Virus record (IMG/VR): IMGVR_UViG_3300035670_000775
Span: 1 to 34,148 of that record
Strand: one strand, 5' to 3'
DNA: 34,148 bases
Source of the DNA: a virus
Shown here piece by piece: positions 5,470 to 11,442 of this stretch. Numbering within the stretch: position 1 is the first letter of the stretch; each line of letters starts with the position of its first letter. The translations under genes and the position numbers were made by a program. Under the pieces are notes generated by a model. It made no database searches, was not told the origin of the DNA, and was given only the letters and a program-made list of their open reading frames with translations.

Positions 5470-5793
5470 CTATTCCCCCGCTTTAACTCTTGCACGCAGT
5501 TTCTCCACAGCCTTTTCACCCCACAACTGGCGTACCAGCCCGATTGTGTCCCTATCCGACAACACGGCAGCAGCGCCAGCCTCTCGGATTAGTTCCGCGA
5601 CCCTATCACGGTTAACGTCAACGCCTCTGGCTAACTGTGCGTCGTAGAACTTTAAGCGGTTTAGCGGGGATTCCCGTACTGCGGAATTCCACATGGCCTG
5701 ATTAGAGTGAAACTGATGTTCTAGGTTATGACTTGGCTTTGGCTTTTCCGTTTGTACTGATTTACTCGGAAAATAAGTGAATTCATCACCCAT
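5470..5793 (-). CDS. Unknown 107-residue protein, first gene of the leftward block after the leader
   Basis: No family recognised. The N-terminal third is polar with several His/Gln; from residue 40 it is helical (ESPLNRLKFYDAQLARGVDV) and ends basic (KLRARVKAGE). AGAGAGG precedes the ATG at good spacing, giving one of the stronger ribosome binding sites here. It is the first leftward gene downstream of the non-coding control region, so it may head the late transcript. A position-based guess of late regulator is possible, but nothing in the residues proves it. Confidence 0.65.
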   Translation of the reverse strand: MGDEFTYFPSKSVQTEKPKPSHNLEHQFHSNQAMWNSAVRESPLNRLKFYDAQLARGVDVNRDRVAELIREAGAAAVLSDRDTIGLVRQLWGEKAVEKLRARVKAGE

Positions 5794-5835
5794 ATATAAC
5801 CTCTCTATGGTTTAGACCTGATGACTGATGGTGAA

Positions 5836-5881
5836 CTCTGCACGGTTGAGACGGAGTACGCCTAACGTGGATCGTGCAGAG
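5836..5881. repeat. Inverted repeat, 9-base perfect arms with 28-base loop
   Basis: CTCTGCACG at 5836-5844 pairs perfectly with CGTGCAGAG at 5873-5881. It lies 43 bases upstream of the leftward gene starting at 5793, in the probable late leader. It could be an RNA hairpin or a protein-binding site. Confidence 0.55.
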
Positions 5882-6053
5882 ATTAGATGACTGACGGAGC
5901 CACCCTGCTGCGGGCTACATTTGCCGGTTTCCCGGTGCCATTCACGCTTCCCCGCTATACGCTGCGTGTCTAGAGGCTGGCCGCCCCGGTCTAGATTTAA
6001 GCCCTGTCTGCGCGTGGTTTCCCCGACCAGATGAGCCGAGGCGTATAGGTAGG

Positions 6054-6081
6054 TTGACAAGCCCGTTAACAGGACTAAACT
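6054..6081 (+). promoter_or_regulatory. Sigma70-like promoter for a candidate small RNA
   Basis: A perfect -35 TTGACA (6054-6059), a 16-base spacer and a -10-like TAAACT (6076-6081). The predicted start is near 6088. The only thing it can drive before the terminator at 6134-6162 is a short RNA. Confidence 0.45.
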
Positions 6082-6087
6082 ACTCGT

Positions 6088-6162
6088 ACGCCAGTTCGCA
6101 AAACAAGCGTAATGCCAGTCCCCCGGCAGCGTCAAGCCCCCTTCTCGGGGGCTTTTCGTTTT
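6088..6162 (+). ncRNA. Candidate ~75-nt small RNA opposite the late leader
   Basis: Bounded by a sigma70-like promoter (6054-6081) and an intrinsic terminator (6134-6162). A small hairpin is possible upstream (TTCGC with GCG-T-AA around 6095-6113), then an unpaired C-rich segment and the terminator stem. There is no start codon with a ribosome binding site and no useful reading frame. It is antisense to the leftward read-through region between the repressor gene and 5793, so a regulatory or antisense role on repressor or late mRNA is conceivable. No known RNA family is recognised. Confidence 0.4.
6134..6162 (+). terminator. Rho-independent terminator, rightward
   Basis: Stem AAGCCCCC (6134-6141) with GGGGGCTT (6147-6154), five-base loop, followed by TTCGTTTT. 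The T-rich side is on the right only, so it stops rightward transcription just before the convergent repressor gene end. Confidence 0.8.
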
Positions 6163-6170
6163 AGCGTCCA

Positions 6171-6338
6171 CTAGCGTCCTTTTGGCGCTTTAACCAGCCC
6201 AGCCTTGTACTGCCACACCCTTTGCTGTGGGATCTCACCGTTGCGTATCCAACGGGATACAGCCGGGGGTTTAACGCCAAACGCCCGGGCTATACCGCTC
6301 GGGGAACCAAACTTCTTCAATGCTGTCTGAATGTCCAT
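6171..6338 (-). CDS. Cro/YdaS-like HTH transcriptional repressor (55 aa)
   Basis: 55 residues beginning MDIQTALKKFGSPSGIARAF, then GVKPPAVSRWIRNGEIPQQR and a basic C-terminus. The helix-turn-helix (SGIARAFGVKPPAVSRWIRNG, split here as residues 14-34) with the following IPQQRVWQ is the pattern of Cro/YdaS-type DNA-binding proteins that recognise operators in phage switches. There is no dimerisation or self-cleavage domain, so it is Cro-like rather than a full CI. It is divergent from the early operon, and palindromes lie in both promoters between them. A -10-like TTAAAT ends six bases before the ATG, so the message is predicted to be leaderless, as for lambda cI from PRM. Confidence 0.88.
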   Translation of the reverse strand: MDIQTALKKFGSPSGIARAFGVKPPAVSRWIRNGEIPQQRVWQYKAGLVKAPKGR

Positions 6339-6344
6339 CCTGCT

Positions 6345-6373
6345 ATTTAACCACGGTTAGCACTTTGAGTAAA
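6345..6373 (-). promoter_or_regulatory. Leftward promoter for the repressor gene, predicted leaderless
   Basis: On the minus strand: -35 TTTACT (6373-6368), 17-base spacer, -10 TTAAAT (6350-6345), then AGCAGG and the ATG at 6338. The expected start site coincides with the A of the ATG. The TAACC/GGTTA palindrome at 6348-6359 overlaps the -10 and spacer. Confidence 0.55.
6348..6359. promoter_or_regulatory. Candidate operator in the repressor promoter
   Basis: TAACC-AC-GGTTA, an inverted repeat with only the central dinucleotide unpaired. It overlaps the leftward -10 region, so occupancy would block repressor transcription. The half-site (T)TAAC(C) is shared with the palindrome at 6432-6445. 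Confidence 0.5.
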
Positions 6374-6420
6374 GACCTAAATGCATAGCATCGTGTGTAT
6401 GTATTTTTTTGTTAGGGGTG

Positions 6421-6448
6421 TTGACATGAGTTTAACTTGTGTTAATAT
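6421..6448 (+). promoter_or_regulatory. Early rightward promoter (PR-like)
   Basis: TTGACA (6421-6426), a 16-base spacer and TAATAT (6443-6448), one of the best sigma70 matches in the window. The predicted start is near 6455, giving a leader of about 40 bases before the first early gene at 6494. The spacer contains the palindrome TTAAC-TTGT-GTTAA. Confidence 0.75.
6432..6445. promoter_or_regulatory. Candidate operator inside the early promoter
   Basis: TTAAC (6432-6436), four-base centre, GTTAA (6441-6445). It lies between -35 and -10 and overlaps the -10, the classic position for a phage repressor operator. It shares its half-site with the palindrome at 6348-6359. Confidence 0.5.
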
Positions 6449-6457
6449 AGCCCCATA

Positions 6458-6473
6458 CCAGCAATGTTGCTGG
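6458..6473 (+). repeat. Hairpin in the early leader
   Basis: CCAGCAA (6458-6464), TG, TTGCTGG (6467-6473): a 7-base perfect inverted repeat in the 5' leader of the early transcript, ten bases before the AGGAG of the first gene. It could stabilise the 5' end of the mRNA or be another operator. Confidence 0.5.
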
Positions 6474-6493
6474 CCCACAGATAGGAGCCAAAA

Positions 6494-6718
6494 ATGAACA
6501 AGCGCCAATACATCCGCATCGCTGACCCGCGATTAGCGTACACAGGCACCCGCACAATGCCGATAATTTTATCGCGCACAAGAAATGAAGTTGCAACGTG
6601 GCTAAAAGCCGCACGGCAAGACGCAAAAACTGCACCGCAATTTGTTTCGTTAAAAAAAGTTGGGAGCGGGTATTTTAAAAAAATTGGCGGCAGTTACGAC
6701 ATGGTAATGCCTGTTTAA
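6494..6718 (+). CDS. First early protein, 74 aa, unknown
   Basis: First gene behind the early promoter; AGGAG lies seven bases before the ATG. The product is small and basic, with a predicted alpha/beta make-up: MNKRQYIRIADPRLAYTGTR, a helical NEVATWLKAARQDAK, and a Gly/Lys-rich end (KVGSGYFKKIGGS). No known domain. The first product of an early operon is often a host-takeover or anti-host protein, but this is inference from position only. Its AT content is visibly higher than that of its neighbours. Confidence 0.65.
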   Translation: MNKRQYIRIADPRLAYTGTRTMPIILSRTRNEVATWLKAARQDAKTAPQFVSLKKVGSGYFKKIGGSYDMVMPV

Positions 6719-6748: not shown

Positions 6749-6802
6749 TTCACTTCGGTTAACATACCCCACGTTGATAGACACAACACAGGAGCAACAG
6801 AT

Positions 6803-11002: not shown

Positions 11003-11196
11003 AAGACGACGTAAGCCCGCCGGGTGCGTGGAAGGAGGAGATGGAACGCGCACCGTGGGCGTTTGGGCAGCGCCAAGGGGATCGGGTAGCCAATGCGCTT
11101 GTGGCGATGCGCCGAGCCGGGTTAGCCGATGACGCGATGGTGCTAGAGATGGAGATAAAGACGCTACGCGCCGAGTTAGAATATCTACGCCGCTGA
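10996..11196 (+). CDS. 66-aa helical protein, last protein of the early operon
   Basis: GGAGGG lies about nine bases before the ATG. The C-terminal 40 residues are a continuous helix (RVANALVAMRRAGLADDAMV, then LEMEIKTLRAELEYLRR), probably a short coiled coil. The stop codon TGA (11194-11196) overlaps the first three bases of the tRNA gene, so mRNA and tRNA are on one transcript and RNase processing would separate them. Function unknown. Confidence 0.65.
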   Translation: MVKDDVSPPGAWKEEMERAPWAFGQRQGDRVANALVAMRRAGLADDAMVLEMEIKTLRAELEYLRR

Positions 11197-11442
11197 AGGG
11201 TCGTCTAACGGTAGGACAACGGACTTTGACTCCGTGAATGTTGGTTCAATCCCAGCCCCTTCAGCCACTTTCGGCGGCCAGCGGAACGGTGCGGTGCGTA
11301 GGTAGTATTTGCCTATGCAGATGCACACGCCGCCGAGGTATTGGTGTTCGTGCGAGCAGTAATACCCTTGACCGTTGGCAGGGCAAAAAAACACGCAATC
11401 CTGACAACCGTTAGGGATTACCCAACTCGGCTGCGTAGCCAT
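11185..11442 (-). CDS. Cys-rich small protein reading into antisense tRNA, tentative
   Basis: From the ATG at 11442 the product starts MATQPSWVIPNGCQDCVFFC and has further Cys/His (YYCSHEHQYLGG, VCICIGKYY), a likely metal-binding knuckle. The last about 25 residues are simply the antisense of the tRNA-Gln gene, which commonly yields this kind of open frame. Either the gene ends abnormally inside the tRNA or the N-terminal Cys-rich part is real and the tail is incidental. A start at 11478 is possible but has no ribosome binding site. It overlaps the metallophosphoesterase stop by 25 bases. Confidence 0.4.
   Translation of the reverse strand: MATQPSWVIPNGCQDCVFFCPANGQGYYCSHEHQYLGGVCICIGKYYLRTAPFRWPPKVAEGAGIEPTFTESKSVVLPLDDPSAA
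11194..11267 (+). tRNA. tRNA-Gln (anticodon UUG) with encoded CCA
   Basis: Full cloverleaf: acceptor TGAAGGG/CCCTTCA with seven perfect pairs, D stem GTCT/GGAC, anticodon stem ACGGA/TCCGT with loop CTTTGAC (anticodon TTG), T stem GTTGG/CCAGC with loop TTCAATC, discriminator G and genomic CCA. The U1-A72 pair and G73 are glutaminyl identity elements, agreeing with the anticodon. It is the last element of the early operon. It reads CAA and, by wobble, CAG. Confidence 0.95.

Follow-up and report, generated by a model that had tools for sequence, protein, structure and literature searches.

A predicted Cro-family repressor in the genomic seat of CI, and a companion small RNA, in phages of freshwater bacteria

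Introduction

A short gene on one strand that faces the early operon of a phage across two divergent promoters raises the question of whether one small protein controls transcription in both directions and, if so, what kind of circuit results. The locus analyzed here lies in a viral record of 34,148 bases (hereafter the window, meaning the whole stretch at its full length), whose virus belongs to freshwater bacteria. An earlier note, made from the letters of the window, had interpreted the locus as a possible single-repressor switch. Here we address (i) to which family the encoded protein belongs; (ii) whether sites at both promoters match it; (iii) whether a second regulator or integration genes accompany it; and (iv) which other conserved elements lie next to it. 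The features concerned are listed in Table 1.

Table 1. Features of the repressor locus and its surroundings (positions in the window)
Feature	Coordinates	Strand	Placement	Basis
Cro-family repressor gene, 55 aa, ATG	6171–6338	−		ORF list and Pfam; 37 close relatives
Putative left operator, TTAAC-CACG-GTTAG, one mismatch	6347–6360		Covers −10 and spacer of repressor promoter	Conserved in relatives
Repressor promoter: −35 TTTACT (6373–6368), 17-bp spacer, −10 TTAAAT (6350–6345)	6345–6373	−		Read from sequence
Putative early operator, TTAAC-TTGT-GTTAA, perfect	6432–6445		Covers spacer and overlaps −10 of early promoter	
Early promoter, TTGACA (6421–6426)-16-TAATAT (6443–6448), 10/12	6421–6448	+		Conserved in relatives
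First early gene, 74 aa, without family match	6494–6718	+		ORF list, Pfam
Third operator-like site, TTCAC-TTCG-GTTAA, one mismatch	6749–6762		Upstream of second early gene	
Small-RNA promoter, TTGACA-16-TAAACT	6054–6081	+		
Companion structured small RNA, three hairpins, last terminator-like	6084–6163	+	Convergent with repressor gene	
Second, larger structured-RNA-like domain	5805–6040		Between small RNA and leftward genes	Compensatory changes

Results

The 55-residue protein is probably a Cro-family repressor

The gene divergent from the early operon had been described as Cro/YdaS-like, and both parts of this description are borne out: the Pfam score of its product lies above the curated cut-off for P22_Cro (PF14549; 34.1 versus 30.2 bits) and, in a weaker match, narrowly passes that for YdaS_toxin (30.9 versus 30.0 bits). 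The helix-turn-helix (HTH) occupies residues 13–33, with the recognition helix at approximately residues 24–33 (PPAVSRWIRN). Comparison of the family profile with the PDB returned P22 Cro (1rzs, E 1.3e-9) and N15 Cro (2hin, 1.7e-9), and the AlphaFold2 model of the protein (pLDDT 80) consists of four helices in an all-helical HTH fold. The solved structures nearest to this model are again N15 Cro (TM 0.70 over the query) and P22 Cro (TM 0.72 over the query), with Foldseek E-values of only 0.01–0.3, weak because the protein is so short. A defense-system library gave just a weak HTH match, and a direct search of GenBank phages with the 55-aa protein returned no relatives. Taken together, the profile and fold matches suggest an all-helical Cro-family DNA-binding repressor. 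It would probably act as a dimer.

As the YdaS_toxin cut-off was passed as well, the protein might instead be a YdaS-like toxin, or one component of a toxin–antitoxin system, and not a repressor. We find this scarcely credible: the P22_Cro score is the higher one, the recognition helix co-varies with the operators (see below), and for YdaS itself a published study used binding data to argue that it is a Cro analog and stands outside toxin–antitoxin pairs (PMC8630535).

The two divergent promoters carry palindromes of one form

The earlier note had placed a palindrome with a TTAAC half-site at each promoter. The one in the early promoter is exact as described and perfect, while the one over the leftward −10 hexamer, given as 6348–6359, is real but extends by one base pair on either side when it is read in the same 5-4-5 register as its counterpart. 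Both then take the shared 14-bp form TTAAC-N4-GTTAA, with a single mismatch on the left, where the overlapped −10 hexamer (TTAAAT) ends 6 bp before the ATG.

A search of the whole window for the palindrome identified three sites with at most one mismatch, where 0.70 were expected; 2 of 100 shuffles did as well. Taken alone, the palindrome statistics of the window are thus modest, mildly above chance, and the stronger evidence is the recurrence of the sites in relatives. The third of these sites, upstream of the second early gene, may be what is left of an earlier version of the early promoter, since in two related loci (L014 and L120) this gene comes immediately after the early promoter. A further operator-like stretch within the small-RNA promoter (6066–6079, two mismatches) was not accepted as a third operator: a near-identical spacer accompanies repressors of another helix class.

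Downstream of the early promoter, the 5' end of the early mRNA (6456–6500 and its equivalents in L014, L021 and L120) is a short hairpin, for example CCAGCA-ATGT-TGCTGG. Its sequence varies among relatives, as does the first early gene behind it, a position at which gene content differs between relatives; small early genes may be exchanged at this hairpin. A tRNA-Gln (TTG) gene at 11194–11267 (+) closes the early block.

Operator half-sites change together with the recognition helix

A search with the 55-aa protein yielded 37 full or nearly full relatives (78–98% identical). Further repressors, with other recognition helices, were collected from records of the major capsid protein, of which the phage group has at least 590 relatives in the viral contig collection, and by searches with two more distant homologs. 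Specificity was scored on 79 distinct upstream regions, comprising helix classes A (n = 28), B (n = 48) and C (n = 3).

Among the 37 close relatives, the intergenic region varies greatly in both length and sequence, and nearly all of them have one TTAAC palindrome over the repressor −10 hexamer and a second in the spacer of the early promoter. In other helix classes, the operators are changed and their positions are the same two places: the helix AVSRW (class A, that of the window) goes with TTAAC, GAVSQW (class B) with TTTAG/CTAAA, and AAVLKW (class C) with TTTAC/GTAAA. With each class scored against its cognate half-site, mean mismatches in classes A, B and C are 0.36, 0.35 and 0.00, respectively, at the early promoter, and 1.21, 1.56 and 0.67 at the repressor promoter; when the operators of A and B are exchanged, mismatches rise to 3.7–4.8. 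The probability of finding both sites by chance is 0.00018 per sequence for class A, and for classes B and C this occurred in 0 of 200 shuffle rounds. The members of a class are related, so that few independent specificity changes lie behind a correlation that spans three classes, the last with three members.

Three sets of loci depart from this pattern. Repressors with the helix RAAVQQW (L202–L209, L123) fit the simple scheme poorly; their promoters are back to back and overlap in a TTGACA-N5-TGTCAA element that contains both −35 boxes, and because of this overlap RNA polymerase could use only one promoter at a time. The SRQAVAKW class (L221, L222), with a single clear palindrome, likewise shows a poor simple fit, and the left site is poor or hard to place in four compact loci of class A (L014, L015, L019 and L033).

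The placement of the two sites is informative as well. The early operator usually starts 11–12 bp after the start of the −35 hexamer and the left operator lies 9–11 bp from the ATG, so that each is fixed relative to its own promoter, whereas the distance between them ranges from 25 to 93 bp in about 80 distinct upstream regions. This combination fits local blocking of RNA polymerase and not a loop of fixed geometry.

One could argue that the palindromes are sites of a host regulator, or mere promoter sequence, and that the 55-aa protein acts elsewhere. Each site does overlap a −10 hexamer, the conservation of which would by itself preserve part of one arm. However, both arms are conserved while the core between them varies more, and the half-site as a whole differs by class in step with the recognition helix of the phage protein, which makes this explanation very unlikely. 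The recognition helix of the window's protein appears to match the sites at both of its promoters, and we consider the comparative evidence that the 55-aa protein would bind both sites to be strong. The proposal that one small protein could act on both promoters is probably correct, judging from these fixed sites and their co-variation with the helix.

The repressor mRNA is probably leaderless

In all 81 distinct relatives, a −10-like hexamer ends 6–8 nt before the ATG of the repressor gene, and in none of the 81 does a Shine-Dalgarno sequence precede this ATG. Given this −10 position and the lack of a Shine-Dalgarno sequence, transcripts would be expected to begin with the start codon or immediately beside it, and the repressor mRNA is probably leaderless. 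Leaderless mRNAs have been described for cI of lambda and PY54 (PMC4488713) and for paaR2 (PMC8630535).

No second repressor and no integration genes were found

The earlier note had seen no separate CI with a self-cleavage domain, and our searches agree: the S24 peptidase domain typical of CI was found neither in 39 records nor in another set of 18, and no other regulator was found among the window ORFs scanned. It had also conceded that a CI-type gene might hide in about 1 kb missing from the window. In four relatives, this segment (approximately 1.16 kb; 1157–1528 bp in these relatives) consists of the end of the terminase gene, a 100-aa ORF and the start of the portal gene, and holds no regulator. 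The 36549-base record G041 has the terminase gene at either end, and its genome may accordingly be circular or circularly permuted, with a length of about 34.2 kb.

These data bear on the view that the locus is a lambda-type switch with two repressors, in which the 55-aa protein would be an ordinary Cro and the CI gene would be unrecognized or missing from the window. The family of the protein, which is Cro, and the absent 1.16 kb would both be compatible with it. Against it stand the contents of the gap in the four relatives, the lack of an S24 domain in the two sets of records and of another regulator in the ORFs scanned from the window, and the strand of the gene, which is that expected of cI and not of cro. 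We therefore regard a hidden CI as very improbable; in the records scanned, none of the hallmarks of a lambda-type CI/Cro system (two opposing repressors, an S24 repressor, integration machinery) was found. That the 55-aa protein would be the only dedicated repressor of this phage is well supported by the comparison of records.

With respect to lifestyle, Phage_integrase was found in none of 92 records, serine Recombinase in none of 21, and a ParA-type ATPase in none of 18; many records are fragments, so that the absence of an integrase from any single one is weak evidence. A search for the capsid protein in 84,980 species genomes gave only nine matches, all in metagenome-assembled contigs of at most 38 kb from unrelated phyla, and these contigs (L129–L137) are probably binned phage contigs that reflect binning contamination. 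By capsid, the nearest cultured relative is phage Mx8, which is temperate.

This kinship is one reason to consider a truly temperate phage with the 55-aa protein as its immunity repressor. Such a phage would persist with its early promoter held off and without a recognized integrase, either episomally or in some other way. The position of the gene in the seat of CI, the better operator on the opposing early promoter, and an apparently leaderless mRNA like those of lambda and PY54 cI (PMC4488713) point in the same direction. Set against these are the missing integrase, recombinase and ParA-type genes and the fact that capsid matches in bacterial genomes are confined to the nine probable phage contigs; on balance, we judge a temperate lifestyle unlikely, though by a smaller measure than the other alternatives discussed here.

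With one repressor on both promoters and neither an opposing regulator nor an integrase or serine recombinase found, the circuit is probably a negative-feedback device for early-gene shut-off or immunity. As a single autorepressing protein does not imply bistability, only part of the phrase "single-repressor switch" can be kept: the single repressor stands, since no second regulator was found, while the word "switch", in its bistable or lysis–lysogeny sense, goes too far. Bistability, lysogeny and a prophage state are not supported; a latent state is possible, if unlikely. No close precedent for repressor-only virulent phages was found in a literature search that covered few subscription journals.

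A conserved small RNA accompanies the repressor gene

The small RNA that converges with the repressor gene is about 80 nt long and forms, together with its promoter, a conserved module. In an alignment of 27 diverse sequences, 90% of cells in its three hairpins are paired. Two-sided changes occur at nine pairs, and covariation scores 0.226, compared with 0.076 in shuffles. One pair supports the plus strand as the transcribed one, since 22 of the 27 sequences have G-U there when read on this strand.

Of 38 records, 21 had a match to a model of the RNA, at exactly one place per record; the other 17 are fragments or lack a close relative of this repressor. In the reverse direction, a search with the DNA pattern of the RNA 3' end, made without reference to the repressor, returned 113 stretches, and 80 of these loci (L260–L339) were examined. 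A repressor gene lies on the opposite strand, 13–1480 bp downstream, in 76 of them, and the contigs of the remaining four end within 143 bp. Rfam 15 recognized only the tRNA in the window at gathering level, with no match up to E 5 on 5760–6200 and none up to E 1 on a related locus (L125). By its clear covariation, the companion RNA qualifies as a candidate for a new, previously undescribed conserved RNA family.

Neither the early leader nor the repressor coding RNA showed pairing that co-evolves with the small RNA. Pairing with these two partners was rejected, since the RNA's own early leader and repressor coding RNA were no better than those of other phages (40/79 and 32/79). In many loci a mere 13–23 bp separate the small RNA from the repressor gene, and no leftward terminator was seen between them in the window, so that read-through RNA from the repressor gene would be antisense to the small RNA. 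We tentatively propose, as a possibility short of even, that repressor and RNA form an obligatory protein-plus-RNA control module in which the RNA would set repressor or late-operon expression in an OOP-like manner.

Two neighboring elements are recorded here as well. The spacer of the small-RNA promoter (6060–6075 and equivalents) has a mean of 3.73 palindromic pairs, compared with 2.91 in shuffled sequences, and its arms change sequence. The larger domain next to the small RNA occurs in two sequence types (exemplified by L021 and L033), with many compensatory changes; on shared pairs, the ratios of G-U-type to A-C-type changes, compared to judge which strand is transcribed, are 29:47 and 4:19, and either strand may be the transcribed one. 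In L003, L004, L008 and L010–L012, other sequence takes the place of this domain and the small RNA alone is kept.

Discussion

The reading that we consider likely is that the 55-aa protein, as a dimer of the Cro family and the sole repressor, would bind the two 14-bp palindromes at the divergent promoters and block RNA polymerase at both. As the protein accumulates, the early operon would be turned off first and, at higher concentration, the repressor's own leaderless promoter, an autorepression through which the repressor level would set itself. Its most likely role would be to turn down early transcription during infection; a second, related phage might be blocked as well, and a longer-lived latent state may or may not be held. 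From sequence comparison we infer binding, repression, the order of shut-off and the leaderless mRNA. The order is predicted because the early site is the better palindrome, and the symmetry of the left site may be limited by the overlapping −10 hexamer, which makes the order of affinities uncertain.

The elements of this circuit are of known kinds. Like P22 Cro and N15 Cro, the protein belongs to a family of small, all-helical proteins that use palindromic operators between divergent promoters, and its recognition helix agrees with the half-site by the rules of Hall et al. (2005), as cited in PMC4488713. In those phages, however, the early operon begins with cro, whose product counteracts a repressor of the CI type, whereas here the repressor gene lies on the opposite strand, across from the early operon, and a CI was not found. 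In fold and family, the protein is thus a Cro, yet its genomic seat is that of CI in lambda.

The nearest functional precedent is YdaS of CP-933P (PMC8630535): low concentrations of YdaS suffice for binding to the opposing promoter, and its own promoter is bound at higher ones. The immunity region of CP-933P, with YdaS and PaaR2, resembles the present locus in the YdaS family and in two divergent promoters with operators (PMC8630535); the opposing-then-own order of binding and a leaderless mRNA, that of paaR2, have predicted counterparts here. It differs in having two opposing regulators plus YdaT and in being bistable, whereas one regulator was found here. An early opposing promoter with the better palindrome, together with a YdaS-like order, would give CI-like behavior despite the Cro family, by analogy. 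With CI of lambda and PY54, the protein shares its genomic position, a leaderless mRNA (predicted here) and the early promoter as main target, but it belongs to another family, and neither an S24-type domain nor a cooperative multi-operator array was seen.

The companion RNA recalls OOP of lambda (77 nt), sar of P22 (68/69 nt) and c4 of P1/P7, which are also short phage RNAs near regulator genes. OOP is antisense to the cII mRNA and promotes its decay (PMC12197685), and the companion RNA would similarly be antisense to the repressor transcript past the stop codon. Unlike these RNAs, it has no Rfam match, it has a conserved three-hairpin fold, and no co-evolving pairing was found for it in the early leader or the repressor coding RNA. 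The near-constant presence of this partner had escaped the earlier note, as had the Cro fold in the seat of CI and the probable leaderless mRNA.

Thus, the parts are of known kinds and the arrangement is new: a lone Cro in the seat of CI, no integrase detected, and a constant small-RNA partner. If the protein-plus-RNA module proposed above is real, a single protein and a single RNA, and not a pair of opposing repressors, would set the timing in this very common group of freshwater phages, in which neither CI nor integrase was found. The roughly 80 natural operator pairs, with a specificity that tracks the recognition helix, offer a test bed for rules of protein–DNA recognition, and a conserved repressor in phages with no detectable integration genes poses the question of whether it serves early shut-off, superinfection control or a hidden latency.
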